44,844 nt of DNA from Saccoglossus kowalevskii. Taxonomy: Eukaryota; Hemichordata; Enteropneusta; Harrimaniidae. The notes beneath the pieces are model-generated. The model did not search any database, had not been told where the DNA came from, and worked only from the letters and a program-made list of their open reading frames with translations. Position numbers and translations under genes: made by a program. The stretch lies in assembly GCF_000003605.2 (NCBI RefSeq), contig NW_003128734.1:1-44844 (forward strand), read 5' to 3'. Shown here in pieces: positions 1-34,800 of this stretch. Positions within the stretch are counted from its first letter, which is position 1. Every line of letters begins with the position of its first letter.

Positions 1-290
1 ACAACAACTTAGGTCAAATAAACAAACAATTCAACCAACTTTGGAATCACTTTGAAGAACTTTGCACGCTATTTTAAAAGCTTGAACCAAATAGGTGCAG
101 ACTGCAAAAACTCAAAAAAGTGTCACTCGCCGGTTTTCACAGATTGTCTCCCATGCAAGTACTAACCACAACCGATTAAACTTTACTTCCATTATCGGCC
201 GATCACCTGACCACTCATCTACTAGTATCAGGGTCATTTAAAAATTATCGTAATTGGCAGCCATTTAATGTATGGAAATGTTTAAAAAAT
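1..290 (+). repeat. Satellite unit 0, left-truncated by window edge
   Basis: This is the final 290 bp of a unit, entering just before the aacttaggtc stretch. It ends with the long L allele (ctactagtatc). It carries the rare tttcacag variant, seen again only near 41169 and 44091, and caaacaattcaac, seen again near 28683. Confidence 0.95.
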
Positions 291-1018
291 CTACGTCCTT
301 CGAGGGACACTACGATATTCAAACGGCCTGTTATGACATATTCATTCACTTTCGCGAACTTTTAGCAACTGGACTCAATAATGTAACAGAATAGGTAACA
401 TTTCCATGTAAATCTGCCAACTTTGCACAAGCTTTTCACAACTTTGTAAGCACTTTGTTAATCACTTTGCGGTTGGGTAGTGGTACAATGTGCCAACATA
501 AATAGCCTTTTTAGACTTTTACATAATTTTGTTCTAAATTTAACTGCGGGGTTCTATATGAAATGACTTAGGGGGAATATAACACGCAAATCCACCAACT
601 TTTCAATCACTTGTCACATTTTTAGTATGTGTTTGTTCATTTTACGGTCGTCTCTTATGACAGTTTGCTAACATGGGAGGTTTCAAATGGATTTGAGTCA
701 TTTTTCATACTTTATAACTGCATTGTTCGATATAACAACAACTTAGGTCAAATAAACAAACAAGTCAACCAACTTTGGAATCACTTTGAAGAACTTTGCA
801 CGCTATTTTAAAAGCTTTAACCAAATAGGTGCAGACTGCAAAAACTCAAAAAAGTGTCACTCGCCGGTTTTCTCAGATTGTCTCCCATGCAAGTACTAAC
901 CACGACCGATTAAACTTTACTTCCATTATCGTTCGATCACCTGACCACTCATCTATCAGGGTCATTTAAAAATTCTCGTAATTGGCGGCCATTTAATGTC
1001 TGGAAATGTTTAAAAAAT
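291..1018 (+). repeat. Satellite unit 1, 728 bp, M allele
   Basis: The head has the variant cggcctgttatg with actcaataatg, and a private change cgagggacac. It has ggtcgtctc and ggatttgag. One extra base (aatataacacg) accounts for the length of 728 instead of 727. Confidence 0.95.
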
Positions 1019-1056
1019 CTACGTCCTTCGAGGGCCACTACGATATTCAAACGGCC

Positions 1057-1236
1057 TTTTATGACATATTCATTCACTTTCGCGAACTTTTAGCAACTGG
1101 ACTCGATAATGTAACAGAATAGGTAACATTTCCATGTAAATCTGACAACTTTGCACAAGCTTTTCACAACTTTGTAAGCACTTTGTTAATCACTTTGCGG
1201 TTGGGTAGTGGTACAATGTGCCAACATAAATAGCCT
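1057..1236 (+). repeat. Internal subrepeat A (of unit 2)
   Basis: This is the first of four quarter-unit segments. It opens with ttttatgacatattcat and has its core caacttt at 1146. A gapless comparison of 1102-1153 with 1453-1504 in subrepeat C gives 32 identities in 52 positions by hand count, around tcgata, taggt and caactttg. Its right end, acaatgtgccaacat, matches acagtctgctaacat at the right end of B. Confidence 0.7.
1167..1202 (+). repeat. Three 12-bp microrepeats inside subrepeat A
   Basis: Three consecutive 12-mers read caactttgtaag, cactttgttaat and cactttgcggtt, sharing a ca(a)ctttg head. The same block recurs in every full unit. Shorter caacttt and cacttt words elsewhere in the monomer suggest that this word seeded parts of the basic repeat. 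Confidence 0.7.
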
Positions 1237-1428
1237 TTTTAGACTTTTACATAATTTTGTTCTAAATTTAACTGCGGGGTTCTATTTGAAATGACTTAGG
1301 GGGAATATACACGCAAATCCACCAACTTTTCAATCACTTGTCACATTTTTAGTATGTGTTTGTTCATTTTACGGTCGTCTCTTATGACAGTCTGCTAACA
1401 TGGGAGGTTTCAAATGGATTTTAGTCAT
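1237..1428 (+). repeat. Internal subrepeat B (of unit 2)
   Basis: It opens with ttttagacttttacata, comparable to ttttagtcatttttcata in C. Its core is ccaacttttcaatcactt, with caacttt at 1323, 177 bp after the core of A. Preceding gacttaggg and cacgcaaatc match aacttaggt and aacaagtc in C. It ends in acagtctgctaacat and ggtttcaaatgg. Confidence 0.72.
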
Positions 1429-1594
1429 TTTTCATACTTTATAACTGCATTGTTCGATATAACAACAACTTAGGTCAAATAAACAAACAAGTCAACCAAC
1501 TTTGGAATCACTTTGAAGAACTTTGCACGCTATTTTAAAAGCTTGAACCAAATAGGTGCAGACTGCAAAAACTCAAAAAAGTGTCACTCGCCGG
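1429..1594 (+). repeat. Internal subrepeat C (of unit 2)
   Basis: It opens with ttttagtcatttttcat. Its core ccaactttggaatcacttt has caacttt at 1497, 174 bp after the core of B. Its right-hand word gcagactgcaaaaac corresponds to acagtctgctaacat of B. Confidence 0.72.
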
Positions 1595-1789
1595 TTTTCG
1601 CAGATTGTCTCCCATGCAAGTACTAACCACAACCGATTAAACTTTACTTCCATTATCGGCCGATCACCTGACCACTCATCTACTAGTATCATGGTCATTT
1701 AAAAATTATCGTAATTGGCAGCCATTTAATGTATGGAAATGTTTAAAAAATCTACGTCCTTCGAGGGCCACTACGATATTCAAACGGCC
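1595..1789 (+). repeat. Internal subrepeat D (of unit 2), most diverged
   Basis: The core position is taken by gaccactcatc near 1670, about 175 bp after the core of C, so homology in the middle is weak. Its right end, attcaaacggccttttatgac, aligns well with tttcaaatggattttagtc at the B/C junction. It extends 38 bp into the next unit because the unit phase is arbitrary. It contains the palindrome ATCGGCCGAT and the L/M/S indel. Confidence 0.5.
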
Positions 1790-2478
1790 TTTTATGACAT
1801 ATTCATTCACTTTCGCGAACTTTTAGCAACTGGACTCGATAATGTAACAGAATAGGTAACATTTCCATGTAAATCTGCCAACTTTGCACAAGCTTTTCAC
1901 AACTTTGTAAGCACTTTGTTAATCACTTTGCGGTTGGGTAGTGGTACAATGTGCCAACATAAATAGCCTTTTTAGACTTTTACATAATTTTGTTCAAAAT
2001 TTAACTGCGGGGTTCTATATGAAATGACTTAGGGGGAATATACACGCAAATCCACCAACTTTTCAATCACTTGTCACATTTTTAGTATGTGTTTGTTCAT
2101 TTTACGGTCGTCTCTTATGACAGTCTGCTAACATGGGTGGATTCAAATGGATTTTAGTCATTTTTCATAACTTTATAACTGCATGGTCGATATAACACAA
2201 CTTAGGTCAAATAAACAAACAAATCGAGCAACTTTGGAATCGCTTTGGAGAACTTTTCACGCTGTTTTAACAGCTTGGACCAAATAGGTGCAGACTGCAA
2301 AAACTCAAAAAAGTGTCACTCGCCGGTTTTCTCAGGTTGTCTCCCATGCAAGTACTAACCACGACCGATTAAACTTTACTTCCATTATCGGTCGATCACC
2401 TGACCACACATCTATCAGGGTCATTTAAAAATTATCGTAATTGGCGGCCATTTAATGTATGGAAAATGTTTAAAAAAT
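1752..2478 (+). repeat. Satellite unit 3, 727 bp, M allele, divergent right half
   Basis: The head is cctttt/cgcgaac and it has the gtggattc variant. Positions 2165-2285 carry many private changes: cataactttat, gcatggtcg, aatcgagcaac, aatcgctttggag, cttttcacgctg and cttggacc. Compensating 1-bp indels keep the length at 727. Confidence 0.94.
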
Positions 2479-2746
2479 CTACGTCCTTCGAGGGCCACTA
2501 CGATATTCAAACGGCCTTTTATGACATATTCATTCACTTTCGCGAACTTTTAGCAACTGGACTCGATAATGTAACAGAATAGGTAACATTTCCATGTAAA
2601 TCTGACAACTTTGCACAAGCTTTTCACAACGTTGTAAGCACTTTGTTAATCACTTTGCGGTAGGGTAGTGGTACAATGTGCCAACATAAATAGCTATTTT
2701 AGACTTTTACATAATTTTGTTCTAAATCTAACTGCATCCTGCATTT
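2479..2746 (+). repeat. Truncated satellite unit 4, 268 bp
   Basis: The unit runs normally from its head to tctaaatctaactgc (ending 2735), then jumps to the start of the next unit. About 460 bp are missing. The junction holds about 11 bases (2736-2746, atcctgcattt) that match neither side well. Confidence 0.95.
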
Positions 2747-3473
2747 CTACATCCTATGAGGGCCACTACGATATTCAAACGGCCTTTTATGACATATTCA
2801 TTCATTTACGCGAACTTTTAACAACTGGACTCGATAATGTAACAGAATAGGTAACATTTCCATGTAAATCTGCCAACTTTGCACAAGTTTTTCACAACTT
2901 TGTAAGCACTTTGTTAATCACTTAGCGCTTGGGTAGTTGTACAATGTGCCAACATAAATAGCTGTTTTAGACTTTTACATAATTTTGTTCTAAATTTAAC
3001 TGCGGGGTTCTATATCAAATGACTTAGGGGGAATATACACGCAAATTCACCAACTTTTCAATCGCTTTTAACATTTTTAGTATGTGTTTGTTCATTTTAC
3101 GGCCGGCTCATATGACAATCTGCTAACATGGGAGGTTTCAAATGGATTTTAGTCATTTTTCATACTTCATAACTGCATGGTTCGATATAACAACAACTCA
3201 GGTCAAATAAACATACAAGTCAACCAACTTAGGAATCACTTTGAAGACCTTTGCACGCTATTTTAACAGCTTGAACCAAATAGGTGCAGACTGCAAAAAC
3301 TCAAAAAAGTGTCACTCGCCGGTTTTCTCAGGTTGTCTCCCATGCAAGTACTAACCACGACCGATTAAACTTTACTTCCATTATCGGCCGATCACCTGAC
3401 CACTCATCTATCAGGGTCATTTAAAAATTATCGTAATTGGCGGCCATTTAATGTATGGAAATGTTTAAAAAAT
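2747..3473 (+). repeat. Satellite unit 5, 727 bp, M allele, divergent
   Basis: The head reads ctacatcctatgagg instead of ctacgtccttcgagg. It carries gcgcttggg, gctgtttta, tatatcaaatg, cgcttttaac, ggccggctc with aatggattttag, and cttaggaatc. Together with units 3 and 6 it is among the most diverged copies here. Confidence 0.94.
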
Positions 3474-4196
3474 CTACGTCCTTCGAGGGCCACTACGATA
3501 TTCAAACGGCCTTTTATGACATATTCATTCACTTTCGCAAACGTTTAGTAACTGGACTCGATAAAGTAACAGAATAGGTAACATTTCCATGTAAATCTGC
3601 CAACTTTGCACAAGCTTTTCACAACTTTGTAAGCACTTTGTTAATCACTTTGCGGTTGGGTAGTGGTACAATGTGCCAACATAAATAGCCTTTTTAGACT
3701 TTTACATAATTTTGTTCTAAATTTAACTGCGGGGTTCTATTTGAAATGACTTAGGGGGAATATACACGCAAATCCACCAACTTTTCAATCGCTTTTAATA
3801 TTTTTAGTATGTGTTTGTTCATTTTACGGCCGGTTCATGTAACAGTCTGCTAACATGGGAGGTTTCAAATGGATTTCAGTCATTTTTCATACTTTATAAC
3901 TGCATTGTTCGATATAACAACAACTTAGGTCAAATAAACAAACAAGTCAACCAACTTTGGAATCACTTTGAAGAACTTTGCACGCTATTTTAAAAGCTTG
4001 AACCAAATAGGTGCAGACTGCAAAAACTCAAAAAGTGTCACTCGCCGGTTTTCTCAGATTGTCTCTCATGCAAGTACTAACCACGACCGATTAACTTTAC
4101 TTCCATTATCGGCCGATCACCTGACCACTCATCTATCAGTCATTTAAATATTATCGTAATTGGCGGCCATTTAATATATGGAAATGTTTTAAAAAT
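3474..4196 (+). repeat. Satellite unit 6, 723 bp, S allele
   Basis: It has the rare block cgcttttaatattttt, ggccggttcatgtaac and ggatttcag, shared with unit 32 (22375), 26 units away. The S deletion (atctatcagtcat) plus two 1-bp losses explain 723. Confidence 0.95.
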
Positions 4197-4924
4197 CTAC
4201 GTCCTTCGAGGGCCACTACGATATTCAAACGGCCTTTTATGACATATTCATTCACTTTCGCAAACTTTTAGTAACTGGACTCGATAATGTAACAGAATAG
4301 GTAACATTTCCATGTAAATCTGACAACTTTGCACAAGCTTTTCACAACTTTGTAAGCACTTTGTTAATCACTTTGCGGTTGGGTAGTGGTACAATGTGCC
4401 AACATAAATAGCTGTTTTAGACTTTTACATAATTTTGTTCTAAATTTAACTGTGAGGTTCTATATGAAATGACTTAGGGGGAATATACACGCAAATCCAC
4501 CAACTTTTCAATCACTTGTCACATTTTTAGTATGTGTTTGTTCATTTTACAGTCGTCTCTTATGACAGTCTGCTAACATGGGAGGTTTCAAATGGATTTG
4601 AGTCATTTTTCATACTTTATAACTGCATTGTTCGATATAACAACAACTTAGGTCAAATAAACAAACAAGTCAACCAACTTTGGAATCACTTTCAAGACCT
4701 TTGCACGCAATTTTAACAGCTTGAACCAAATAGGTGCAGACTGCAAAAACTCAAAAAAGTGTCACTCGCCGCGTTTTCTCAGATTGTCTCCCATGCAAGT
4801 ACTAACCACGACCGATTAAACTTTACTTCCATTATCGTTCGATCACCTGACCACTCATCTATCAGGGTCATTTAAAAATTCTCGTAATTGGCGGCCATTT
4901 AATGTATGGAAATGTTTAAAAAAT
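4197..4924 (+). repeat. Satellite unit 7, 728 bp, M allele
   Basis: It has cgcaaactttt with gataatg, ctgtgaggttc, a private acagtcgtctc, ggatttgag, and gcacgcaattttaac. One extra base in gccgcgtttt gives 728. Confidence 0.95.
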
Positions 4925-5644
4925 CTACGTCCTTCGAGGGCCACTACGATATTCAAACGGCCTTTTATGACATATTCATTCACTTTCGCGAACTTTTAGC
5001 AACTGGACTCGATAATGTAACAGAATAGGTAACATTTCCATGTAAATCTGACAACTTTGCACAAGCTTTTCACAACTTTGTAAGCACTTTGTTAATCACT
5101 TTGCGGTTGGGTAGTGGTACAATGTGCCAACATAAATAGCTGTTTTAGACTTTTACAGAATTTTGTTCTAAATTTAACTGCGGGGTTCTATTTGAAATGA
5201 CTTAGGGGGAATATACACGCAAATCCACCAACTTTTCAATCACTTGTCACATTTTTAGTATGTGTTTGTTCATTTTACGGTCGCCTCATATGACAGTCTG
5301 CTAACATGGGAGGTTTCAAATGGATTTTAGTCATTTTTCATACTTTATAACTGCATTGTTCGATATAACAACAACTTAGGTCAAATAAACAAACAAGTCA
5401 ACCAACTTTGGAATCACTTTGAAGAACTTTGCACGCTATTTTAAAGCTTGAACCAATAGTGCAGACTGCAAAACTCAAAAAGTGTCACTCGCCGGTTTCG
5501 CAGATTGTCTCCCATGCAGTACTAACCACGACCGATTAAACTTTACTTCCATTATCGTTCGATCACCTGACCACTCATCTATCAGGGTCATTTAAAAATT
5601 ATCGTAATTGGCAGCCATTTAATGTATGGAAATGTTTAAAAAAT
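4925..5644 (+). repeat. Satellite unit 8, 720 bp, M allele
   Basis: It has cctttt/cgcgaac, ttacagaatttt and ggtcgcctcatatg; the last two are shared with unit 18 (12199). Seven single-base losses clustered at 5441-5521 explain the short length. Confidence 0.95.
5441..5521. other. Patch of seven single-base deletions, probably sequence error
   Basis: Runs are shortened by one base in ttaaagctt, accaatagtg, gcaaaactc, caaaaagtg, ggtttcg and gcagtac, compared with nearly every other unit. Several independent 1-bp losses within 80 bp, mostly in homopolymers, look like unpolished long-read sequence rather than biology. Confidence 0.65.
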
Positions 5645-6370
5645 CTACGTCCTTCGAGGGCCACTACGATATTCAAACGGCATTTTATGACATATTTATT
5701 CACTTTCGCAAACGTTTAGTAACTGGACTCGATAACGTAACAGAATAGGTAACATTTCCATGTAAATCTGCCAACTTTGCACAAGCTTTTCACAACTTTG
5801 TAAGCACTTTGTTAATCACTTTGCGGTTGGGTAGTGGTACAATGTGCCAACATAAATAGCCTTTTTAGACTTTTACATAATTTTGTTCTAAATTTAACTG
5901 CGGGGTTCTATATGAAATGACTTAGGGGGAATATACACGCAAATCCACCAACTTTTCAATCACTTGTCACATTTTTAGTATGTGTTTGTTCATTTTACGG
6001 TCGTCTCTTATGACAGTCTGCTAACATGGGTGGATTCAAATGGATTTTAGTCATTTTTCATACTTTATAACTGCATGGTTCGATATAACAACAACTTAGG
6101 TCAAATAAACAAACAAGTCAACCAACTTTGGAATCACTTTGAAGACCCTTGCACGCTATTTTAACAGCTTGAACCAAATAGGTGCAGACTGCAAAAACTC
6201 AAAAAAGTGTCACTCGCCGGTTTTCTCAGGTTGTCTCCCATGCAAGTACTAACCACGACCGATTAAACTTTACTTCCATTATCGTTCGATCACCTGACCA
6301 CTCATCTATCAGGGTCATTTAAAATTATCGTATTTGGCGGCCATTAAATGTATGGAAATGTTTAAAAAAT
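5645..6370 (+). repeat. Satellite unit 9, 726 bp, M allele
   Basis: The head is cggcatttt/atttattc/cgcaaacg with gataacg. It has gccttttta, tatatgaaatg, gtggattc and gaagaccctt. Before the next unit it has tatttggcggccattaaatg. Confidence 0.95.
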
Positions 6371-7097
6371 CTACGTCCTTCGAGGGCCACTACGATATTC
6401 AAACGGCCTGTTATGACATATTCATTCACTTTCGCGAACTTTTAGCAACTGGACTCAATAATGTAACAGAATAGGTAACATTTCCATGTAAATCTGCCAA
6501 CTTTGCACAAGCTTTTCACAACTTTGTAAGCACTTTGTTAATCACTTTGCGGTTGGGTAGTGGTACAATGTGCCAACATAAATAGCCTTTTTAGACTTTT
6601 ACATAATTTTGTTCTAAATTTAACTGCGGGGTTCTATATGAAATGACTTAGGGGGAATATACACGCAAATCCACCAACTTTTCAATCACTTGTCACATTT
6701 TTAGTATGTGTTTGTTCATTTTACGGTCGTCTCTTATGACAGTCTGCTAACATGGGTGGATTCAAATGGATTTTAGTCATTTTTCATACTTTATAACTGC
6801 ATGGTTCGATATAACAACAACTTAGGTCAAATAAACAAACAAGTCAACCAACTTTGGAATCACTTTGAAGACCCTTGCACGCTATTTTAACAGCTTGAAC
6901 CAAATAGGTGCAGACTGCAAAAACTCAAAAAAGTGTCACTCGCCGGTTTTCTCAGGTTGTCTCCCATGCAAGTACTAACCACGACCGATTAAACTTTACT
7001 TCCATTATCGTTCGATCACCTGCCCACTCATCTATCAGGGTCATTTAAGAATAATCGTATTTGGCGGCCATTAAATGTATGGAAATGTTTAAAAAAT
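6371..7097 (+). repeat. Satellite unit 10, 727 bp, M allele
   Basis: The cctgttatg/actcaataatg head is combined with gtggattc and gaagaccctt, the same combination as the final unit at 44243. A private aagaataatcg lies near 7047. Confidence 0.95.
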
Positions 7098-7830
7098 CTA
7101 CGTCCTTCGAGGGCCACTACGATATTCAAACGGCCTTTTATGACATATTCATTCACTTTCGCGAACTTTTAGCAACTGGACTCAATAATGTAACAGAATA
7201 GGTAACATTTCCATGTAAATCTGACAACTTTGCACAAGCTTTTCACAACTTTGTAAGCACTTTGTTAATCACTTTGCGGTTGGGTAGTGGTACAATGTGC
7301 CAACATAAATAGCTGTTTTAGACTTTTACATAATTTTGTTCTAAATTTATCTGCGGGGTTCTATTTGAAATGACTTAGGGGGAATATACACGCAAATCCA
7401 CCAACTTTTCAATCACTTGTCACATTTTTAGTATGTGTTTGTTCATTTTATGGTCGTCTCTTATGACAGTCTGCTAACATGGGAGGTTTCAAATAGATTT
7501 TAGTCATTTTTCATACTTTATAACTGCATTGTTCGATATAACAACAACTTAGGTCAAATAAACAAACAAGTCAACCAACTTTGGAATCACTTTGAAGAAC
7601 TTTGCACGCTATTTTAAAAGCTTGAACCAAATAGGTGCAGACTGCAAAAACTCAAAAAAGTGTCACTCGCCGGTTTTCGCAGATTGTCTCCCATGCAAGT
7701 ACTAACCACAACCGATTAAACTTTACTTCCATTATCGGCCGATCACCTGACCACTCATCTGCTAGTATCAGGGTCATTTAAAAATTATCGTAATTGGCAG
7801 CCATTTAATGTATGGAAATGTTTAAAAAAT
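7098..7830 (+). repeat. Satellite unit 11, 733 bp, L allele
   Basis: It has actcaataatg with cctttt, gctgtttta, tttatctgcgggg (shared with unit 52), tatggtcgtctc and aaatagatttt. The L insertion is mutated to gctagtatc, so its SpeI site is lost. Confidence 0.95.
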
Positions 7831-8553
7831 CTACGTCCTTCGAGGGCCACTACGATATTCAACGGCATTTTATGACATATTTATTCACTTTCGCAAACGT
7901 TTAGTAACTGGACTCGATAAAGTAACAGAATAGGTAACATTTCCATGTAAATCTGCCAACTTTGCACAAGCTTTTCACAACTTTGTAAGCACTTTGTTAA
8001 TCACTTTGCGGTTGGGTAGTGGTACAATGTGCCAACATAAATAGCCTTTTTAGACTTTTACATAATTTTGTTCTAAATTTAACTGTGGGGTTCTATTTGA
8101 AATGACTTAGGGGGAATATACACGCAAATCCACCAACTTTTCAATCACTTTCACATTTTTAGTATGTGTTTGTTCATTTTACGGTCGTCTCTTATGACAG
8201 TCTGCTAACATGGGAGGTTTCAAATGGATTTTAGTCATTTTTCATACTTTATAACTGCATTGTTCGATATAACAACAACTTAGGTCAAATAAACAAACAA
8301 GTCAACCAACTTTGGAATCACTTTGAAGAACTTTGCACGCTATTTTAAAAGCTTGAACCAAATAGGTGCAGACTGCAAAAACTCAAAAAAGTGTCACTCG
8401 CCGGTTTTCTCAGATTGTCTCCCATGCAAGTACTAACCACGACCGATTAAACTTTACTTCCATTATCGGCCGATCACCTGACCACTCATCTATCAGTCAT
8501 TTAAAAATTATCGTAATTGGCGGCCATTTAATGTATGGAAATGTTTAAAAAAT
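7831..8553 (+). repeat. Satellite unit 12, 723 bp, S allele
   Basis: The head is cggcatttt/cgcaaacg/gataaag with one base lost (tcaacggc). Ctgtggggttc reads CG to TG. The S allele and two 1-bp losses give 723. Confidence 0.95.
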
Positions 8554-9279
8554 CTACGTCCTTCGAGGGCCACTGCGATATTCAAACGGCATTTTATGAC
8601 ATATTCATTCACTTTCGCAAACTTTTAGTAACTGGACTCGATAATGTAACAGAATAGGTAACATTTCCATGTAAATCTGACAACTTTGCACAAGCTTTTC
8701 ACAACTTTGTAAGCACTTTGTTAATCACTTAGCGCTTGGGTAGTTGTACAATGTGCCAACATAAATAGCTGTTTTAGACTTTTACATAATTTTGTTCTAA
8801 ATTTAACTGCGAGGTTCTATTTGAAATGACTTAGGGGAATATACACGCAAATCCACCAACTTTCCAATCACTTGTCACTTTTTTAGTATGTGTTTGTTCA
8901 TTTTACGGTCGTCTCTTATGACAGTCTGCTAACATGGGAGGTTTCAAATGGATTTGAGTCATTTTCCATACTTTATAACTGCATTGTTCGATATAACAAC
9001 AACTTAGGTCAAATAAACAAACAAGTCAACCATCTTTGGAATCACTTTGAAGAACTTTGCACGCTATTTTAAAAGCTTGAACCAAATAGGTGCAGACTGC
9101 AAAAACTCAAAAAAGTGTCACTCGCCAGTTTTCTCAGATTGTCTCCCATGCAAGTACTAACCACGACCGATTAAACTTTACTTCCATTATCGGCCGATCA
9201 CCTGACAACTCATCCATCAGGGTCATTTAAATATTATCGTCATTGGCGGCCATTTAATGTATGGAAATGTTTAAAAAAT
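8554..9279 (+). repeat. Satellite unit 13, 726 bp, M allele
   Basis: It has cactgcgat, gcgcttggg, gctgtttta, gcgaggttc, one g fewer in cttagggga, tttccaatc, ggatttgag, and the catccatcaggg/cgtcattgg pair shared with unit 19 (12932). Confidence 0.95.
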
Positions 9280-10004
9280 CTACGTCCTTCGAGGGCCACT
9301 ACGATATTCAAACGGCATTTTATGACATATTTATTCACTTTCGCAAACGTTTAGTAACTGGACTCGATAAAGTAACAGAATAGGTAACATTTCCATGTAA
9401 ATCTGCCAACTTTGCACAAGCTTTTCACAACTTTGTAAGCGCTTTGTTAATCACTTTGCGGTTGGGTAGTGGTACAATGTGCCAACATAAATAGCCTTTT
9501 TAGACTTTTACATAATTTTGTTCTAAATTTAACTGCGGGGTTCTATTTGAAATGACTTAGGGGGAATATACACGCAAATCCACCAACTTTTCAATCACTT
9601 GTCACATTTTTAGTATGTGTTTGTTCATTTTACGGTCGTCTCTTATGACAGTCTGCTAACATGGGAGGTTTCAAATTGATTTTAGTCATTTTTCATACTT
9701 TATAACTGCATTGTTCGATATAACAACAACTTAGGTCAAATAAACAAACAAGTCAACCAACTTTGGAATCACTTTGAAGAACTTTGCACGCTATTTTAAA
9801 AGCTTGAACCAAATAGGTGCAGACTGCAAAAACTCAAAAAAGTGTCACTCACCGGTTTTCTCAGATTGTCTCCCATGCAAGTACTAACCACGACCGATTA
9901 AACTTTACTTCCATTATCGGCCGATCACCTGACCACTCATCTATCAGTCATTTAAAAATTATCGTAATTGGCGGCCATTTAATGTATGGAAATGTTTAAA
10001 AAAT
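9280..10004 (+). repeat. Satellite unit 14, 725 bp, S allele
   Basis: It has cggcatttt/atttattc/gataaag, aagcgctttg, gccttttta and aaattgattttag, the last shared with unit 43. With unit 13 it forms a two-unit block resembling units 19-20, six units downstream. Confidence 0.95.
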
Positions 10005-10732
10005 CTACGTCCTTCGAGGGCCACTACGATATTCAAACGGCATTTTATGACATATTCATTCACTTTCGCAAACTTTTAGTAACTGGACTCGATAATGTAA
10101 CAGAATAGGTAACATTTCCATGTAAATCTGACAACTTTGCACAAGCTTTTCACAACTTTGTAAGCACTTTGTTAATCACTTAGCGCTTGGGTAGTTGTAC
10201 AATGTGCCAACATAAATAGCTGTTTTAGACTTTTACATAATTTTGTTCTAAATTTAACTGCGAGGAATCTATTTGAAATGACTTAGGGGAATATACACGC
10301 AAATCCACCAACTTTTCAATCACTTGTCACATTTTTAGTATGTGTTTGTTCATTTTACGGCCCGGCTCATATGACAGTCTGCTAACATGGGAGGTTTCAA
10401 AGGGATTTTATTCATTTTTCATACTTTATAACTGCATTGTTCGATATAACAACAACTTAGGTCAAATAAACAAACAAGTCAACCAACTTTGGAATCACTT
10501 TGAAGAACTTTGCACGCTATTTTAACAGCTTGAACCAAATAGGTGCAGACTGCAAAAACTCAAAAAAGTGTCACTCGCCGGTTTTCGCAGATTGTCTCCC
10601 ATGCAAGTACTAACCACGACCGATTAAACTTTACTTCAATTATCATTCGATCACCTGACCACTCATCTATCAGGGTCATTTAAAAATTATCGTATTTGGC
10701 GGCCATTAAATGTATGGAAATGTTTAAAAAAT
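10005..10732 (+). repeat. Satellite unit 15, 728 bp, M allele
   Basis: It has gcgcttggg, gcgaggaatctattt, ggcccggctc (one extra c) with aagggattttat. It ends with the private ttcaattatcattcg, shared only with the next unit. Confidence 0.95.
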
Positions 10733-11459
10733 CTACGTCCTTCGAGGGCCACTACGATATTCAAACGGCCTTTTATGACATATTCATTCACTTTCGCGAA
10801 CTTTTAGCAACTGGACTCGATAATGTAACAGAATAGGTAACATTTCCATGTAAATCTGACAACTTTGCACAAGCTTTTCACAACTTTGTAAGCACTTTGT
10901 TAATCACTTTGCGGTTGGGTAGTGGTACAATGTGCCAACATAAATAGCTGTTTTAGACTTTTACTTAATTTTGCTCTAAATTTAACTGCGGGGTTATATT
11001 TGAAATGACTTAGGGGGAATATACACGCAAATCCACCAACTTTTCAATCACTTGTCACATTTTTAGTATGTGTTTGTTCATTTTACGGCCGGCTCATATG
11101 ACAGTCTGCTAACATGGGAGGTTTCAAAGGGATTTTATTCATTTTTCATACTTTATAACTGCATTGTTCGATATAACAACAACTTAGGTCAAATAAACAA
11201 ACAAGTCAACCAACTTTGGAATCACTTTGAAGAACTTTGCACGCTATTTTAAAAGCTTGAACCAAATAGGTGCAGACTGCAAAAACTCAAAAAAGTGTCA
11301 CTCGCCGGTTTTCGCAGATTGTCTCCCATGCAAGTACTAACCACGACCGATTAAACTTTACTTCAATTATCATTCGATCACCTGACCACTCATCTATCAG
11401 GGTCATTTAAAAATTATCGTATTTGGCGGCCATTAAATGTATGGAAATGTTTAAAAAAT
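10733..11459 (+). repeat. Satellite unit 16, 727 bp, M allele
   Basis: It has acttaattttgctc and gcggggttatatttg (related to unit 60), ggccggctc and aagggattttat, and again ttcaattatcattcg. It looks like a recent tandem copy of part of unit 15. Confidence 0.95.
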
Positions 11460-12198
11460 CTACGTCCTTCGAGGGCCACTACGATATTCAAACGGCCTTT
11501 TATGACATATTCATTCACTTTTCGCGAACTTTTTAGCAACTGGACTCGATAATGTAACAGAATAGGTAACATTTCCATGTAAATCTGACAACTTTGCACA
11601 AGCTTTTTCACAACTTTGTAAGCACTTTTGTTAATCACTTTGCGGTTTGGGTAGTGGTACAATGTGCCAACATAAATAGCTGTTTTTAGACTTTTACATA
11701 ATTTTGTTCTAAATTTAACTGCGGGGTTCTATTTGAAATGACTTAGGGGGAATATACACGCAAATCCACCAACTTTTCAATCACTTGTCACATTTTTAGT
11801 ATGTGTTTGTTCATTTTACGGTCGTCTCTTATGACAGTCTGCTAACATGGGAGGTTTCAAATGGATTTTAGTCATTTTTCATACTTTATAACTGCATTGT
11901 TCGATATAACAACAACTTAGGTCAAATAAACAAACAAGTCAACCAACTTTGGAATCACTTTGAAGAACTTTGCACGCTATTTTAAAAGCTTGAACCAAAT
12001 AGGTGCAGACTGCAAAAACTCAAAAAAGTGTCACACGCCGGTTTTCGCAGATTGTCTCCCATGCAAGTACTAACCACAACCGATTAAACTTTACTTCCAT
12101 TATCGGCCGATCACCTGACCACTCATCTACTAGTATCAAGGTCATTTAAAAATTATCGTAATTGGCAGCCATTTAATGTATGGAAATGTTTAAAAAAT
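11460..12198 (+). repeat. Satellite unit 17, 739 bp, L allele
   Basis: Six single T insertions in T runs at 11518-11690, plus the 6-bp L insertion, account exactly for 739. It also has tcacacgccgg and tatcaaggtc. Confidence 0.95.
11518..11690. other. Patch of six single T insertions, probably sequence error
   Basis: T runs are lengthened by one in acttttcgcg, actttttagc, agctttttcac, gcacttttg, cggtttggg and ctgttttta. The surrounding bases match the consensus. Confidence 0.65.
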
Positions 12199-12931
12199 CT
12201 ACGTCCTTCGAGGGCCACTACGATATTCAAACGGCCTTTTATGACATATTCATTCACTTTCGCGAACTTTTAGCAACTGGACTCGATAATGTAACAGAAT
12301 AGGTAACATTTCCATGTAAATCTGACAACTTTGCACAAGCTTTTCACAACTTTGTAAGCACTTTGTTAATCACTTTGCGGTTGGGTAGTGGTACAATGTG
12401 CCAACATAAATAGCTGTTTTAGACTTTTACAGAATTTTGTTCTAAATTTAACTGCGGGGTTCTATTTGAAATGACTTAGGGGGAATATACACGCAAATCC
12501 ACCAACTTTTCAATCACTTGTCACATTTTTAGTATGTGTTTGTTCATTTTACGGTCGCCTCATATGACAGTCTGCTAACATGGGAGGTTTCAAATGGATT
12601 TTAGTCATTTTTCATACTTTATAACTGCATTGTTCGATATAACAACAACTTAGGTCAAATAAACAAACAAGTCAACCAACTTTGGAATCACTTTGAAGAA
12701 CTTTGCACGCTATTTTAAAAGCTTGAACCAAATAGGTGCAGACTGCAAAAACTCAAAAAAGTGTCACTCGCCGGTTTTCGCAGATTGTCTCCCATGCAAG
12801 TACTAACCACAACCGATTAAACTTTACTTCCATTATCGGTCGATCACCTGACCACTCATCTACTAGTATCATGGTCATTTAAAAATTATCGTAATTGGCG
12901 GCCATTTAATGTATGGAAATGTTTAAAAAAT
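12199..12931 (+). repeat. Satellite unit 18, 733 bp, L allele
   Basis: It shares ttacagaatttt and ggtcgcctcatatg with unit 8, ten units upstream. The L insertion combines with atcggtcgatc and ggcggcc, a recombinant allele combination. Confidence 0.95.
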
Positions 12932-13657
12932 CTACGTCCTTCGAGGGCCACTACGATATTCAAACGGCCTTTTATGACATATTCATTCACTTTCGCGAAC
13001 TTTTAGCAACTGGACTCGATAATGTAACAGAATAGGTCACATTTCCATGTAAATCTGACAACTTTGCACAAGCTTTTCACAACTTTGTAAGCACTTTGTT
13101 AATCACTTAGCGCTTGGGTAGTTGTACAATGTGCCAACATAAATAGCTGTTTTAGACTTTTACATAATTTTGTTCTAAATTTAACTGCGGGGTTCTATTT
13201 GAAATGACTTAGGGGAATATACACGCAAATCCACCAACTTTCCAATCACTTGTCAGTTTTTTAGTATGTGTTTGTTCATTTTACGGTCGTCTCTTATGAC
13301 AGTCTGCTAACATGGGAGGTTTCAAATGGATTTGAGTCATTTTTCATACTTTATAACTGCATTGTTCGATATAACAACAACTTAGGTCAAATAAACAAAC
13401 AAGTCAACCAACTTTGGAATCACTTTGAAGAACTTTGCACGCTATTTTAAAAGCTTGAACCAAATAGGTGCAGACTGCAAAAACTCAAAAAAGTGTCACT
13501 CGCCGGTTTTCTCAGATTGTCTCCCATGCAAGTACTAACCACGACCGATTAAACTTTACTTCCATCATCGGCCGATCACCTGACCACTCATCCATCAGGG
13601 TCATTTAAATATTATCGTCATTGGCGGCCATTTAATGTATGGAAATGTTTAAAAAAT
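12932..13657 (+). repeat. Satellite unit 19, 726 bp, M allele
   Basis: It has aataggtcac (also in unit 22), gcgcttggg, tttccaatc, tcagttttttag, ggatttgag and catccatcaggg/cgtcattgg as in unit 13. Confidence 0.95.
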
Positions 13658-14382
13658 CTACGTCCTTCGAGGGCCACTACGATATTCAAACGGCATTTTA
13701 TGACATATTTATTCACTTTCGCAAACGTTTAGTAACTGGACTCGATAAAGTAACAGAATAGGTAACATTTCCATGTAAATCTGCCAACTTTGCACAAGCT
13801 TTTCACAACTTTGTAAGCACTTTGTTAATCACTTTGCGGTTGGGTAGTGGTACAATGTGCCAACATAAATAGCCTTTTTAGACTTTTACATAATTTTGTT
13901 CTAAATTTAACTGCGGGGTTCTATTTGAAATGACTTAGGGGGAATATACACGCAAATCCACCAACTTTTCAATCACTTGTCACATTTTTAGTATGTGTTT
14001 GTTCATTTTACGGTCGTCTCTTATGACAGTCTGCTAACATGGGAGGTTTCAAATGGATTTTAGTCATTTTTCATACTTTATAACTGCATTGTTCGATATA
14101 ACAACAACTTAGGTCAAATAAACAAACAAGTCAACCAACTTTGGAATCACTTTGAAGAACTTTGCACGCTATTTTAAAAGCTTGAACCAAATAGGTGCAG
14201 ACTGCAAAAACTCAAAAAAGTGTCACTCGCCGGTTTTCTCAGATTGTCTCCCATGCAAGTACTAACTACGACCGATTAAACTTTACTTCCATTATCGGCC
14301 GATCACCTGACCACTCATCTATCAGTCATTTAAAAATTATCGTAATTGGCGGCCATTTAATGTATGGAAATGTTTAAAAAAT
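13658..14382 (+). repeat. Satellite unit 20, 725 bp, S allele
   Basis: It has cggcatttt/atttattc/gataaag, gcggttggg, gccttttta and aatggattttag. Ctaactacg is shared with units 23 and 50. Confidence 0.95.
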
Positions 14383-15106
14383 CTACGTCCTTCGAGGGCC
14401 ACTACGATATTCAAACGGCATTTTATGACATATTTATTCACTTTCGCAAACGTTTAGTAACTGGACTCGATAAAGTAACAGAATAGGTAACATTTCCATG
14501 TAAATCTGCCAACTTTGCACAAGCTTTTCACAACTTTGTAAGCACTTTGTTAATCACTTTGCGGTTGGGTAGTGGTACAATGTGCCAACATAAATAGCCT
14601 TTTTAGACTTTTACATAATTTTGTTCTAAATTTAACTGCGGGGTTCTATTTGAAATGACTTAGGGAGAATATACACGCAAATCCACCAACTTTTCAATCA
14701 CTTGTCACATTTTTAGTATGTGTTTGTTCATTTTACGGTCGTCTCTTATGACAGTCTGCTAACATGGGAGGTTTCAAATGGATTTTAGTCATTTTTCATA
14801 CTTTATAACTGCATTGTTCGATATAACAACTTAGGTCAAATAAACAAACAAGTCAACCAACTTTGGAATCACTTTGAAGAACTTTGCACGCTATTTTAAA
14901 AGCTTGAACCAAATAGGTGCAGACTGTAAAAACTCAAAAAAGTGTCACTCGCCGGTTTTCTCAGGTTGTCTCCCATGCAAGTACTAACCACGACCGATTA
15001 AACTTTACTTCCATTATCGGTCGATCACCTGACCACTCATCTATCAGGGTCATTTAAATATTATCGTAATTGGCGGCCATTTAATGTATGGAAATGTTTA
15101 AAAAAT
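14383..15106 (+). repeat. Satellite unit 21, 724 bp, M allele
   Basis: It carries agggagaat and a 3-bp deletion (atataacaacttagg). Both occur together again in unit 36 (25289), 15 units away. Gactgtaaaaac is private. Confidence 0.95.
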
Positions 15107-15832
15107 CTACGTCCTTCGAGGGCCACTACGATATTCAAACGGCCTTTTATGACATATTCATTCACTTTCGCGAACTTTTAGCAACTGGACTCGATAATGT
15201 AACAGAATAGGTCACATTTCCATGTAAATCTGACAACTTTGCACAAGCATTTCACAACTTTGTAAGCACTTTGTTAATCACTTAGCGCTTGGGTAGTTGT
15301 ACAATGTGCCAACATAAATAGCTGTTTTAGACTTTTACATAATTTTGTTCTAAATTTAACTGCGGGGTTCTATTTGAAATGACTTAGGGGAATATACACG
15401 CAAATCCACCAACCTTTCAATCACTTGTCACATTTTTAGTATGTGTTTGTTCATTTTACGGTCGTCTCTTATGACAGTCTGCTAACATGGGAGGTTTCAA
15501 ATGGATTTGAGTCATTTTTCATACTTTATAACTGCATTGTTCGATATAACAACAACTTAGGTCAAATAAACAAACAAGTCAACCAACTTTGGAATCACTT
15601 TGAAGAACTTTGCACGCTATTTTAAAAGATTGAACCAAATAGGTGCAGACTGCAAAAACTCAAAAAAGTGTCACTCGCCGGTTTTCTCAGATTGTCTCCC
15701 ATGCAAGTACTAACCACGACCGATTAAACTTTACTTCCATTATCGGCCGATCACCTGACAACTCATCTATCAGGGTCATTTAAATATTATCGTAATTGGC
15801 GGCCATTTAATGTATGGAAATGTTTAAAAAAT
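15107..15832 (+). repeat. Satellite unit 22, 726 bp, M allele
   Basis: Three rare variants, aagcatttcac, caacctttcaatc and aaaagattgaacc, are all shared with unit 26 (18009), four units away. It has gcgcttggg and ggatttgag. Confidence 0.95.
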
Positions 15833-16565
15833 CTACGTCCTTCGAGGGCCACTACGATATTCAAACGGCATTTTATGACATATTCATTCACTTTCGCAAA
15901 CTTTTAGTAACTGGACTCGATAACGTAACAGAATAGGTAACATTTCCATGTAAATCTGCCAACTTTGCACAAGCTTTTCACAACTTTGTAAGCACTTTGT
16001 TAATCACTTTGCGGTTGGGTAGTGGTACAATGTGCCAACATAAATAGCCTTTTTAGACTTTTACATAATTTTGTTCTAAATTTAACTGCGGGGTTCTATT
16101 TGAAATGACTTAGGGGGAATATACACGCAAATCCACCAACTTTTCAATCACTTGTCACATTTTTAGTATGTGTTTGTTCATTTTACGGTCGTCTCTTATG
16201 ACAGTCTGCTAACATGGGAGGTTTCAAATGGATTTTAGTCATTTTTCATACTTTATAACTGCATTGTTCGATATAACAACAACTTAGGTCAAATAAACAA
16301 ACAAGTCAACCAACTTTGGAATCACTTTGAAGAACTTTGCACGCTATTTTAAAAGCTTGAACCAAATAGGTGCAGACTGCAAAAACTCAAAAAAGTGTCA
16401 CTCGCCGGTTTTCTCAGATTGTCTCCCATGCAAGTACTAACTACGACCGATTAAACTTTACTTCCTTTATCGGCCGATCACCTGACCACTCATCTACTAG
16501 TATCAGGGTCATTTAAAAATTATCGTAATTGGCGGCCATTTAATGTATGGAAATGTTTAAAAAAT
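15833..16565 (+). repeat. Satellite unit 23, 733 bp, L allele
   Basis: It has cggcatttt with cgcaaactttt and gataacg, ctaactacg, private cttcctttatcgg, and L joined to ggcggcc instead of the usual ggcagcc. Confidence 0.95.
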
Positions 16566-17283
16566 CTACGTCCTTCGAGGGCCACTACGATATTCAAACG
16601 GCATTTTATGACATATTCATTCACTTTCGCAAACTTTTAGTAACTGGACTCGATAATGTAACAGAATAGGTAACATTTCCATGTAAATCTGACAACTTTG
16701 CACAAGCTTTTCACAACTTTGTAAGCACTTTGTTAATCACTTAGCGCTTGGGTAGTTGTACAATGTGCCAACATAAATAGCTGTTTTAGAATTTTACATA
16801 ATTTCGTTCTAAATTTAACTGCGGGGTTCTATTTGAAATGACTTAGGGGGAATATACACGCAAATCCACCAACTTTTCAATCACTTGTCACATTTTAGTA
16901 TGTGTTTGTTCATTTTACGGCCGGCTCATATGACAGTCTGCTAACATGGGAGGTTTCAAAGGGATTTTATTCATTTTTCATACTTTATAGCTGCATGGTT
17001 CGATATAACAACGACTTAGGTCAGATAAACAAACAAGTCAACCAACTTAGGAATCACTTTCAAGACGCTATTTTAACAGCTTGAACCAAACAGGTGCAGA
17101 CTGCAAAAACTCAAAAAAGTGTCACTCGCCGGTTTTCTCAGGTTGTCTCCCATGCAATTACTAACCACGACCGATTAAACTTTACTTCCATTATCGGTCG
17201 ATCACCTGACCACTCATCTATCAGGGTCATTTAAAAATTATCGTATTTGGCGGCCATTAAATGTATGGAAATGTTTTAAAAAT
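16566..17283 (+). repeat. Satellite unit 24, 718 bp, M allele, 8-bp deletion
   Basis: Ctttgcac is deleted after caaga (junction near 17067). Caacgactt, cttaggaatc and aaacagg are also present. The set recurs in unit 53 (37687), 29 units away. It has ggccggctc and aagggattttat. Confidence 0.96.
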
Positions 17284-18008
17284 CTACGTCCTTCGAGGGC
17301 CACTACGATATTCAAACGGCCTTTTATGACATATTCATTCACTTTCGCGAACTTTTAGCAACTGGACTCGATAATGTAACAGAATAGGTAACATTTCCAT
17401 GTAAATCTGACAACTTTGCACAAGCTTTTCACAACTTTGTAAGCACTTTGTTAATCACTTTGCGGTTGGGTAGTGGTACAATGTGCCAACATAAATAGCT
17501 GTTTTAGACTTTTACATAATTTTGTTCTAAATTTAACTGCGGGGTTCTATTTGAAATGACTTAGGGGGAATATACACGCAAATCCACCAACTTTTCAATC
17601 ACTTGTCACATTTTTAGTATGTGTTTGTTCATTTAACGGTCGTCTCTTATGACAGTCTGCTAACATGGGAGGTTTCAAATGGATTTTAGTCATTTTTCAT
17701 ACTTTATAACTGCATTGTTCGATATAACAACAACTTAGGTCAAATAAACAAACAAGTCAACCAACTTTGGAATCACTTTGAAGAACTTTGCACGCTATTT
17801 TAAAAGCTTGAACCAAATAGGTGCAGACTGCAAAAACTCAAAAAAGTGTCACTCGCCGGTTTTCTCAGATTGTCTCCCATGCAAGTACTAACCACGACCG
17901 ATTAAACTTTACTTCCATTATCGGCCGATCACCTGACCACTCATCTATCAGTCATTTAAATATTATCGTAATTGGCGGCCATTTAATATATGGAAATGTT
18001 TAAAAAAT
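17284..18008 (+). repeat. Satellite unit 25, 725 bp, S allele
   Basis: It has cctttt/cgcgaac/gataatg, gctgtttta, private catttaacggtcg, and S joined to aaatatt and aatatatgg as in unit 6. Confidence 0.95.
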
Positions 18009-18735
18009 CTACGTCCTTCGAGGGCCACTACGATATTCAAACGGCCTTTTATGACATATTCATTCACTTTCGCAAACTTTTAGTAACTGGACTCGATAAT
18101 GTAACAGAATAGGTAACATTTCCATGTAAATCTGACAACTTTGCACAAGCATTTCACAACTTTGTAAGCACTTTGTTAATCACTTAGCGCTTGGGTAGTT
18201 GTATAATGTGCCAACATAAATAGCTGTTTTAGACTTTTACATAATTTTGTTCTAAATTTAACTGCGGGGTTCTATTTGAAATGACTTAGGGGAATATACA
18301 CGCAAATCCACCAACCTTTCAATCACTTGTCACATTTTTAGTATGTGTTTGTTCATTTTACGGTCGTCTCTTATGACAGTCTGCTAACATGGGAGGTTTC
18401 AAATGGATTTGAGTCATTTTTCATACTTTATAACTGCATTGTTCGATATAACAACAACTTAGGTCAAATAAACAAACAAGTCAACCAACTTTGGAATCAC
18501 TTTGAAGAACTTTGCACGCTATTTTAAAAGATTGAACCAAATAGGTGCAGACTGCAAAAACTCAAAAAAAGTGTCACTCGCCGGTTTTCTCAGATTGTCT
18601 CCCATGCAAGTACTAACCACGACCGATTAAACTTTACTTCCATTATCGGCCGATCACCTGACAACTCATCTATCAGGGTCATTTAAATATTATCGTAATT
18701 GGCAGCCATTTAATGTATGGAAATGTTTAAAAAAT
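18009..18735 (+). repeat. Satellite unit 26, 727 bp, M allele
   Basis: It carries the three-variant set of unit 22 but with a cgcaaactttt head, tgtataatg, and gacaactcatc joined to ggcagcc. Confidence 0.95.
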
Positions 18736-19464
18736 CTACGTCCTTCGAGGGCCACTACGATATTCAAACGGCATTTTATGACATATTTATTCACTTTCGC
18801 AAACGTTTAGTAACTGGACTCGATAAAGTAACAGAATAGGTAACATTTCCATGTAAATCTGCCAACTTTGCACAAGCTTTTCACAACTTTTGTAAGCACT
18901 TTGTTAATCACTTTTGCGGTTGGGTAGTGGTACAATGTGCCAACATAAATAGCCTTTTTAGACTTTTACATAATTTTGTTCTAAATTTAACTGCGGGGTT
19001 CTATATGAAATGACTTAGGGGGAATATACACGCAAATCCACCAACTTTTCAATCACTTGTCACATTTTTAGTATGTGTTTGTTCATTTTACGGTCGTCTC
19101 TTATGACAGTCTGCTAACATGGGTGGATTCAAATGGATTTTAGTCATTTTTCATACTTTATAACTGCATGGTTCGATATAACAACAACTTAGGTCAAATA
19201 AACAAACAAGTCAACCAACTTTGGAATCACTTTGAAGACCCTTGCACGCTATTTTAACAGCTTGAACCAAATAGGTGCAGACTGCAAAAACTCAAAAAAG
19301 TGTCACTCGCCGGTTTTCTCAGGTTGCCTCCCATGCAAGTACTAACCACGACCGATTAAACTTTACTTCCATTATCGTTCGATCGCCTGACCACTCATCT
19401 ATCAGGGTCATTTAAAAATTATCGTATTTGGCGGCCATTAAATGTATGGAAATGTTTAAAAAAT
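18736..19464 (+). repeat. Satellite unit 27, 729 bp, M allele
   Basis: Two T insertions at 18887-18915 explain 729. It has gataaag, tatatgaaatg, gtggattc, gaagaccctt, and private ggttgcctcc and gatcgcctg. Confidence 0.95.
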
Positions 19465-20191
19465 CTACGTCCTTCGAGGGCCACTACGATATTCAAACGG
19501 CCTGTTATGACATATTCATTCACTTTCGCGAACTTTTAGCAACTGGACTCAATAATGTAACAGAATAGGTAACATTTCCATGTAAATCTGACAACTTTGC
19601 ACAAGCTTTTCACAACTTTGTAAGCACTTTGTTAATCACTTTGCGCTTGGGTAGTGGTACAATGTGCCAACATAAATAGCTGTTTTAGACTTTTACATAA
19701 TTTTGTTCTAAATTTAACTGCGGGGTTCTATTTGAAATGACTTAGGGGGAATATACACGCAAATCCACCAACTTTTCAATCACTTGTCACATTTTTAGTA
19801 TGTGTTTGTTCATTTTACGGTCGTCTCTTATGACAGTCTGCTAACATGGGAGGTTTCAAATGGATTTTAGTCATTTTTCATACTTTATAACTGCATTGTT
19901 CGATATAACAACAACTTAGGTCAAATAAACAAACAAGTCAACCAACTTTGGAATCACTTTGAAGAACTTTGCACGCTATTTTAACAGCTTGAACCAAATA
20001 GGTGCAGACTGCAAAAACTCAAAAAAGTGTCACTCGCCGGTTTTCTCAGATTGTCTCCCATGCAAGTACTAACCACGACCGATTAAACTTTACTTCCATT
20101 ATCGGCCGATCACCTGACAACTCATCTATCAGGGTCATTTAAATATTATCGTAATTGGCGGCCATTTAATGTATGGAAATGTTTAAAAAAT
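19465..20191 (+). repeat. Satellite unit 28, 727 bp, M allele
   Basis: It has the cctgttatg/actcaataatg head, ttgcgcttggg (mixed allele), gctgtttta and gacaactcatc with aaatatt. Confidence 0.95.
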
Positions 20192-20917
20192 CTACGTCCT
20201 TCGAGGGCCACTACGATATTCAAACGGCATTTTATGACATATTTATTCACTTTCGCAAACGTTTAGTAACTGGACTCGATAAAGTAACAGAATAGGTAAC
20301 ATTTCCATGTAAATCTGACAACTTTGCACAAGCTTTTCACAACTTTGTAAGCACTTTGTTAATCACTTAGCGCTTGGGTAGTTGTACAATGTGCCAACAT
20401 AAATAGCTGTTTTAGACTTTTACATAATTTTGTTCTAAATTTAACTGCGAGGTTCTATTTGAAATGACTTAGGGGAATATACACGCAAATCCACCAACTT
20501 TCCAATCACTTGTCACATTTTTAGTATGTGTTTGTTCATTTTACGGTCGTCTCTTATGACAGTCTGCTAACATGGGAGGTTTCAAATGGATTTGAGTCAT
20601 TTTTCATACTTTATAACTGCATTGTTCGATATAACAACAACTTAGGTCAAATAAACAAACAAGTCAACCAACTTTGGAATCACTTTGATGAACTTTGCAC
20701 GCTATTTTAAAAGCTTGAACCAAATAGGTGCAGACTGCAAAAACTCAAAAAAGTGTCACTCGCCGGTTTTCTCAGATTGTCTCCCATGCAAGTACTAACC
20801 ACGACCGATTAAACTTTACTTCCATTATCGGCCGATCACCTGACAACTCATCTATCAGGGTCATTTAAATATTATCGTAATTGGCGGCCATTTAATGTAT
20901 GGAAATGTTTAAAAAAT
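20192..20917 (+). repeat. Satellite unit 29, 726 bp, M allele
   Basis: It has cggcatttt/gataaag, gcgcttggg, gcgaggttc, tttccaatc, ggatttgag and private gatgaactttg. Confidence 0.95.
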
Positions 20918-21650
20918 CTACGTCCTTCGAGGGCCACTACGATATTCAAACGGCATTTTATGACATATTTATTCACTTTCGCAAACGTTTAGTAACTGGA
21001 CTCGATAATGTAACAGAATAGGTAACATTTCCATGTAAATCTGACAACTTTGCACAAGCTTTTCACAACTTTGTAAGCACTTTGTTAATCACTTTGCGGT
21101 TGGGTAGTGGTACAATGTGCCAACATAAATAGCTGTTTTAGACTTTTACATAATTTTGTTCTAAATTTAACTGCGGGGTTCTATTTGAAATGACTTAGGG
21201 GGAATATACACGCAAATCCACCAACTTTTCAATCACTTGTCACATTTTTAGTATGTGTTTGTTCATTTTACGGTCGTCTCTTATGACAGTCTGCTAACAT
21301 GGGAGGTTTCAAATGGATTTTAGTCATTTTTCATACTTTATAACTGCATTGTTCGATATAACAACAACTTAGGTCAAATAAACAAACAAGTCAACCAACT
21401 TTGGAATCACTTTGAAGAACTTTGCACGCTATTTTAAAAGCTTGAACCAAATAGGTGCAGACTGCAAAAACTCAAAAAAGTGTCACTCGCCGGTTTTCGC
21501 AGATTGTCTCCCATGCAAGTACTAACCACAACCGTTTAAACTTTACTTCCATTATCGGCCGATCACCTGACCACTCATCTACTAGTATAAGGGTCATTTA
21601 AAAATTATCGTAATTGGCAGCCATTTAATGTATGGAAATGTTTAAAAAAT
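20918..21650 (+). repeat. Satellite unit 30, 733 bp, L allele
   Basis: It has cggcatttt with gataatg, gctgtttta, tttcgcag, accgtttaaac, and agtataaggg (shared with unit 46). Confidence 0.95.
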
Positions 21651-34775: not shown

Positions 34776-34800
34776 CTACGTCCTTCGAGGGGCCACTACG
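34481..34800. other. Densest indel and substitution patch, probably low-quality consensus
   Basis: More than ten changes fall in about 320 bp: caaagtcaac, aactatgaagaaactatg, gctgaaacc, aaaataggtgcaagac, acttcaaaaaaagtg, gtttgtcaag, actaaaccacg, atatttatcg, ggaaaatg and gaggggcc. Most are extra single bases. Confidence 0.65.

Follow-up and report, generated by a model that had tools for sequence, protein, structure and literature searches.

A 727-bp satellite of Saccoglossus kowalevskii that probably combines a decayed 5S rRNA gene with copies of a ~175-bp repeat

The stretch of DNA analysed in this study, hereafter referred to as the window, is the whole of contig C2063 (44,844 bp), which belongs to a Saccoglossus kowalevskii assembly of 572 Mb in 4830 contigs. 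It was found to be occupied from end to end by a satellite in head-to-tail arrangement, the features of which are listed in Table 1. Unit anchors, for which up to six substitutions were allowed, delimited 61 intervals, and the single 996-bp interval among them was dropped prior to alignment. The regular intervals range from 721 to 738 bp, the commonest unit length is 727 bp (15 of the 60 units), and the consensus of the aligned units is 727 bp long as well. The preliminary description gave the monomer as 728 bp, one base more than this consensus. The mean pairwise identity between units is 0.957 and we observed no higher-order structure among them, the identity remaining between 0.953 and 0.960 and flat over lags of 1 to 24 units. 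No tRNA genes were found in the window.

Table 1. Features of the satellite array, with positions in the window and, where mapped, in the 727-bp consensus
Feature	Position	Strand	Basis or remark
Satellite array, head-to-tail	1..44844	+	Entire contig; alignment of 60 regular units, 62 anchors found
5S relic of the preceding unit (845-1571)	866..936	-	cmscan; full RF00001 model at 851-942
Subrepeat B, first ~175-bp copy	1066..1241 (consensus 222-397)	+	Consensus alignments, mapped to the window
Subrepeat C, second ~175-bp copy	1242..1416 (consensus 398-572)	+	Consensus alignments, mapped to the window
Subrepeat D, third copy, ~120 bp recognisable	1417..1535 (consensus 573 to ~691)	+	Mapped from consensus
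Six-T run (AAAAAA on +), terminator-like	1575..1580	-	Just beyond the 3' end of the 5S relic
5S rRNA gene relic	1593..1663 (consensus 22-92)	-	In the unit starting at 1572; mapped from consensus
Site of the 25-base run	1607..1631	-	Last + base is A here, G in the consensus
AATTGGCGGCCATTTAATG-type motif	1712..1731	not assigned	99 bp from box C in six of seven 728/943-type unit sequences
Irregular unit	2478..3003	+	268-bp stretch tandemly duplicated, inside the 996-bp interval

The monomer itself contains an internal periodicity. A banded gapped self-alignment of the consensus reached a score of 60 at lags of 165-190 bp, compared with a maximum of 22.5 in 150 shuffles that preserved dinucleotide content. 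Given that this score exceeds that of every shuffle, the ~175-bp repeat within the monomer is real. The remaining lag bands of the real sequence scored between 10.5 and 20, with the exception of the overlapping band from 150 (44) and of the double lag, where the bands from 330 and from 345 scored 28 and 31, respectively. By contrast, ungapped offset identity over the whole consensus was rejected as a measure, its maximum of 0.333 standing against a shuffle mean of 0.320 and a shuffle maximum of 0.340 (300 shuffles). The measured lags between subrepeats are 174-178 bp, which replaces the period of 182 bp proposed earlier.

With regard to the number of copies, the consensus was divided into segments A (1-221), B (222-397), C (398-572) and D (573-727), the borders of which were chosen after viewing the alignments. 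The pairs B-C, B-D and C-D scored 27.5, 28.0 and 35.0, and none of these scores was matched in 1000 shuffles. Segment A scored 11.0 against B, 9.0 against C and 7.5 against D, and of 1000 shuffles 350, 924 and 1000, respectively, did at least as well; its reverse-strand scores of 10.5-13.5 also fall inside the forward-shuffle range. A profile built from B to D recovered B, C and D and gave no match in A with nhmmer at its most sensitive setting and E-values up to 1000. The mutual similarity of B, C and D was also observed when subrepeat splits were scored against 20 shuffles per split. Only three segments, of 176, 175 and about 120 bp, thus match one another, and since the third is partial, the monomer corresponds to approximately 2 2/3 copies of a ~175-bp repeat and 220-260 bp of other sequence. 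A subrepeat period detected within a monomer should accordingly be read with caution, as it may not span the whole monomer.

These results bear on the structure put forward in the preliminary description, in which the monomer was an ancient tetramer of a repeat of nucleosomal length. A self-alignment with a shuffled control, the check proposed there, gave a periodic signal for three segments; an older repeat of such length is indeed buried in the unit, in three copies at lags of 174-178 bp. The fourth copy is not borne out, as segment A is at shuffle level against B to D and the fourth quarter of the unit holds a 5S relic with its flank. The start assigned to the fourth segment, 1595, falls inside this minus-strand relic. 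Almost all of the individual matches were confirmed. The gapless match of 1102-1153 with 1453-1504 has exactly the 32 identities in 52 positions that were counted, a value reached by 3 of 100 shuffles, and when the consensus is compared with itself without gaps, the best 52-base stretch has 38 identities, above the null maximum of 33 (100 shuffles). The word ACAnTnTGCnAACAT, said to be common to the first two segments of that description, is present at 1213 and 1387, and the junction words are found at 1046, 1409 and 1779 as TTCAAAnGG followed by TTTTA within 3 bases. With regard to the three cores described as lying about 175 bp apart, CCAACTTT occurs at 1322 and 1496, but at 1145 the unit reads ACAACTTT; the corresponding column of the first core is polymorphic, 33 of the 60 units having C there and 27 having A.

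The part of the unit outside the subrepeats carries, on the minus strand, a segment homologous to the host 5S rRNA gene. Compared with the genome's own 5S gene, the consensus is identical at 56 of 71 positions (78.9%, E 3e-11), including an exact run of 25 bases at the site where the internal promoter of 5S genes has its intermediate element and box C. On the plus strand, the last base of this run is G in 40 of the 60 units and A in the other 20. Against another 5S gene sequence, 53 of 73 positions are identical without gaps on the minus strand of consensus 20-92; the alignment to this gene scored 33, and the maxima of two nulls of 2000 shuffles each were 19 and 17. The consensus and the host gene also share a C in TTGCATGG, a base of this lineage; the human gene has G there. 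The closer match to the genome's own 5S gene together with the shared C points to this gene as the source of the relic. When up to four substitutions were allowed, the minus strand contained 60 occurrences of the 21-base core of the 5S segment, 51 of which are exact, and the plus strand contained none. A T-run of five to seven bases on the 5S strand is present in all 60 units, approximately at the site of the terminator in the true gene, and its placement is that expected of a Pol III terminator.

Nevertheless, the unit does not hold a complete 5S gene reaching the family score. In a cmscan run over 700-2300, the relic at 866..936 obtained 15.8 bits (E 5.5) with RF00001, for which the gathering score is 38, and neither this nor any other Rfam family matched at its gathering score anywhere in the window. 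RF00001 was not listed in the Rfam run over the whole window with E-values up to 10, and the first third of the gene could not be recognised in the unit by local alignment. The other Rfam families returned at E-values up to 10, namely RAGATH-21, SSRC38 and rli42 for 700-2300 and SNORA29 and rli42 for the whole window, look like chance matches.

Related units are also present in other parts of the genome. The 21-mer of the 5S core was found at 7269 places with at most one mismatch (none for a reversed-pattern control), and a motif from outside the 5S segment at 4125 places (one for the control). Taking each place of the latter motif as one unit of 0.73-0.94 kb, satellites of the 728/943 type may account for ~3-4 Mb of the assembly. 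We identified a second 728-bp array on C115, which shares ~91% identity with the consensus of the window, as well as units of 939-944 bp on C124, C324, C389, C74 and C113, an excised unit of 946 bp on C275, where the steps are mostly near 956 bp, and a single unit of 931 bp with the 5S core on C183. The sister families of ~930-957 bp possess the same core. Over the window consensus, five units showed identities of 0.61 to 0.82, the identity between the window and the 943 type being 0.64-0.65. The unit at C183:3300-5300 is closer to the 727-bp family of the window (0.70) than to the 943 type (0.61-0.62). Old broken copies were observed inside the large contigs C6, C203, C58, C62, C261, C257, C254 and C7. 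In the 943-type units, Tandem Repeats Finder reported short runs of a repeat of 10-11 or 21 bp (CAACTTTGCAA type), and it reported none in the window.

Ten of these loci were fetched with two motifs from outside the 5S segment, and the 5S core was present in seven (up to 8 mismatches in 29): C275, C74 and C58 among the five loci of the first motif, and C113, C183, C257 and C7 among the five of the second. It was not found in C62, C261 and C254. The subrepeats are likewise not confined to the window. Three 943-type consensi (C324, C389 and C124) have lags of 177-178 bp and of ~347-348 or 367 bp, and three segments of the C124 consensus beat all 1000 shuffles in every pair. With the subrepeats present in these consensi and the 5S core in the sister families, the trimer and the composite unit as a whole are older than the split between the 728 and 943 families.

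A search for a surviving plain satellite of ~180 bp had been suggested together with the tetramer. The two motifs from outside the 5S segment occur at 4125 and 2196 places in the genome, and the first 100 listed of each were examined. Among these 200 places, no plain array of ~175-180 bp was found; the steps correspond to one or more unit lengths (~728-957 bp), a few are irregular, and some places are solitary. The same genome does contain a satellite of 216 bp, whose relationship is to the 5S part. In its arrays, on C111, C242 and C404, each unit combines 118 bp of 5S-like sequence with a 98-bp spacer, and on C111 and C404 we also observed steps of 118 bp, that is, adjacent 5S parts without a spacer. 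Most of these units score above the cut-off of 38 with the 5S model (40.8-98.5 bits), whereas none of six 728- or 943-type loci scanned alongside exceeded 38 bits. The 216-bp satellites in C111:1-10000, C242:1-10000 and C404:1-10000 could be miscounted as 5S genes by annotation pipelines.

A motif resembling AATTGGCGGCCATTTAATG lies 99 bp from box C in six of the seven 728/943-type unit sequences (it was not found in C74) and 105 bp from box C in both 216-bp satellite consensi. The similar distance suggests that the 5S module plus flank is common to the two kinds of unit. The similarity of the 216-bp spacers to the 728/943 units is weak: of 2000 shuffles, 2 and 9 reached the score in the best two unit sequences, 53, 87 and 107 in three others, and 1038 and 1280 in the last two.

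The window array is distinct from the functional 5S arrays. Of 18217 first-look candidates for RF00001, 47 were scored, and all of these matches come from C3485, C2212 and C3801. The true 5S rDNA arrays on C3485 and C2212 have units of ~1139 and ~1579 bp, and their gene-adjacent flanks differ between the types.

Whether the 5S core is under constraint was assessed at two levels. Inside the array, it shows no special conservation, its 26-bp window ranking 352 of 727. Across six unit sequences (four consensi and two single units), the core is the most conserved 30-bp window, with 0.83 against a mean of 0.475, and the max-statistic P was 0.011 when columns were permuted and 0.029 when blocks were; three of the six (C115, C124 and C324), however, had been fetched through the 5S core itself. 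When the window was compared with two arrays fetched without the core, the core had 0.83 against 0.547, with P of 0.12 and 0.32. With the window and four such arrays, two measures were combined with two window sizes and with two nulls; P ranged from 0.036 to 0.39, and the core ranked between 1 and 5 of about 700 windows. As the arrays chosen without the core gave mostly non-significant values, the conservation across families is only suggestive of selective constraint. It seems doubtful, though conceivable, that the core and the T-run are kept because they function in TFIIIA/TFIIIC binding or Pol III transcription over thousands of units. If this were true, a Pol III promoter would have been domesticated by a satellite superfamily as the remainder of the gene decayed, and promoter activity would aid the persistence of the satellite or the organisation of chromatin.

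Primate alpha satellite forms higher-order repeats in which diverged copies of ~170 bp are amplified as a larger unit. The window is similar in that its larger unit likewise holds diverged copies, of ~175 bp, and appears to have been amplified whole. Unlike alpha satellite, its unit adds a foreign 5S module, and no array of the simple monomer was seen among the 200 listed places. Among satellites related to 5S rDNA, PcP190 of frogs is described as a tandem repeat of ~190 bp with a conserved 5S-like region of 120 bp, located on contigs apart from 5S rDNA and reported to be transcribed (PMC11675491). The 216-bp satellites of the present genome are similarly built and come near to this organisation. 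The window unit does not share it: compared by description, it is 727 bp long, its 5S segment is recognisable over ~71 bp, and it carries three additional ~175-bp subrepeats. PLsatB of Plantago lagopus is said to be derived from 5S rDNA (PMC11202950), and a 5S-derived satellite of Hoplias malabaricus is named in the title of a work cited in PMC12692304. By these descriptions, both resemble the window unit in being 5S rDNA-derived, but the literature covered mentions no composite unit with subrepeats of nucleosome length for either. Cassandra TRIM elements of plants form tandem arrays whose units include 5S sequence together with a Pol III promoter and a terminator (PMC7215508). Cassandra is, however, an LTR retroelement with 5S sequence in its LTRs, whereas in the window unit the 5S gene is well preserved in its 3' core only.

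In the open-access literature on 5S-derived or composite satellites, covered by titles and listings, none was recognised as the satellite of the window, and the known 5S-derived satellites amount to a handful in the literature covered. The 727-bp unit forms a long head-to-tail array, contains a segment homologous to the host 5S gene and is separate from the functional 5S arrays. On the basis of its sequence, we assign the array to the 5S rDNA-derived satellite class, and neither to PcP190 nor to the tetramers.

Taken together, the array is probably a composite 5S rDNA-derived satellite, in which a decayed copy of the host 5S gene is combined with three ~175-bp copies, two full and one partial. 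A 5S copy with a short spacer, resembling the present 216-bp satellites, would have been joined to a few tandem 175-bp repeats, after which the composite would have been amplified as a whole and homogenised through unequal crossing over and gene conversion. The junction of a 216-bp-like unit with 175-bp repeats is a step that we infer rather than one seen directly, and several results count against this explanation: the lack of a plain source array for the 175-bp part among the 200 listed places, the weak spacer similarity to the 216-bp satellites, the absence of an RF00001 match at the gathering score in the window, and the three of ten loci without a 5S core. The present role of the array would most likely be that of ordinary satellite DNA, in heterochromatin or packing, the 5S core being mostly an inherited relic that is possibly maintained by the binding of Pol III factors. 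A true ancient tetramer, whose fourth copy of ~175-182 bp was overwritten or diverged around a 5S insertion, would be in line with the three genuine surviving copies and with the distance of ~375 bp from the last core to the first core of the next unit, which is near two repeat lengths. Nevertheless, we consider it rather improbable, given that A resembles B, C and D no better than shuffles do, that the B-D profile finds nothing in A even with nhmmer E-values up to 1000, and that the lags of the three 943-type consensi also fit three copies.

It is also unlikely that the unit represents, over its full length, a 5S rDNA repeat in decay with old spacer subrepeats of 175 bp, as the consensus matches the true 5S arrays over the gene only (best 40 BLAST matches). 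Each unit does contain one relic with a correctly placed T-run, true tandem 5S units of ~1139 and ~1579 bp do exist, and 5S genes with satellite-like spacers are known from Tribolium freemani (PMC11202950). The internal-promoter core with its T-run would also suit a 5S-derived mobile element, SINE3-like or Cassandra TRIM-like, that turned tandem; old dispersed copies are found in the eight large contigs named above, and Cassandra, with 5S in its LTRs, makes long tandem arrays (PMC7215508). The relic matches, however, differ in their endpoints and several continue into a second unit, as judged by eye from the BLAST rows. Such variable ends are more in keeping with fragments of a satellite than with an element whose ends are fixed, and an origin from a mobile element appears very improbable. 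Chance resemblance in AT-rich sequence, finally, has a practically negligible probability. In its favour, the best offsets of the whole unit without gaps are only 10, 11 and 21 bp long, and their identity of 0.333 does not exceed the 0.340 reached by shuffles, but the shuffle-controlled local alignments and the recurrence in sister families contradict it.

The composite reading gains interest from its setting, as a single genome contains true 5S arrays, 216-bp satellites, and composites of ~728 and 930-957 bp. The co-occurrence of these types allows comparison to test how a gene became a satellite and what becomes of an internal promoter inside one. In the same assembly, cox1, when translated with TGA as tryptophan, indicates an animal mitochondrion. 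The mitochondrial contig C4830 carries cox1 on the strand opposite to nad1 and cox2, and has ATA codons at positions where other animals have isoleucine.
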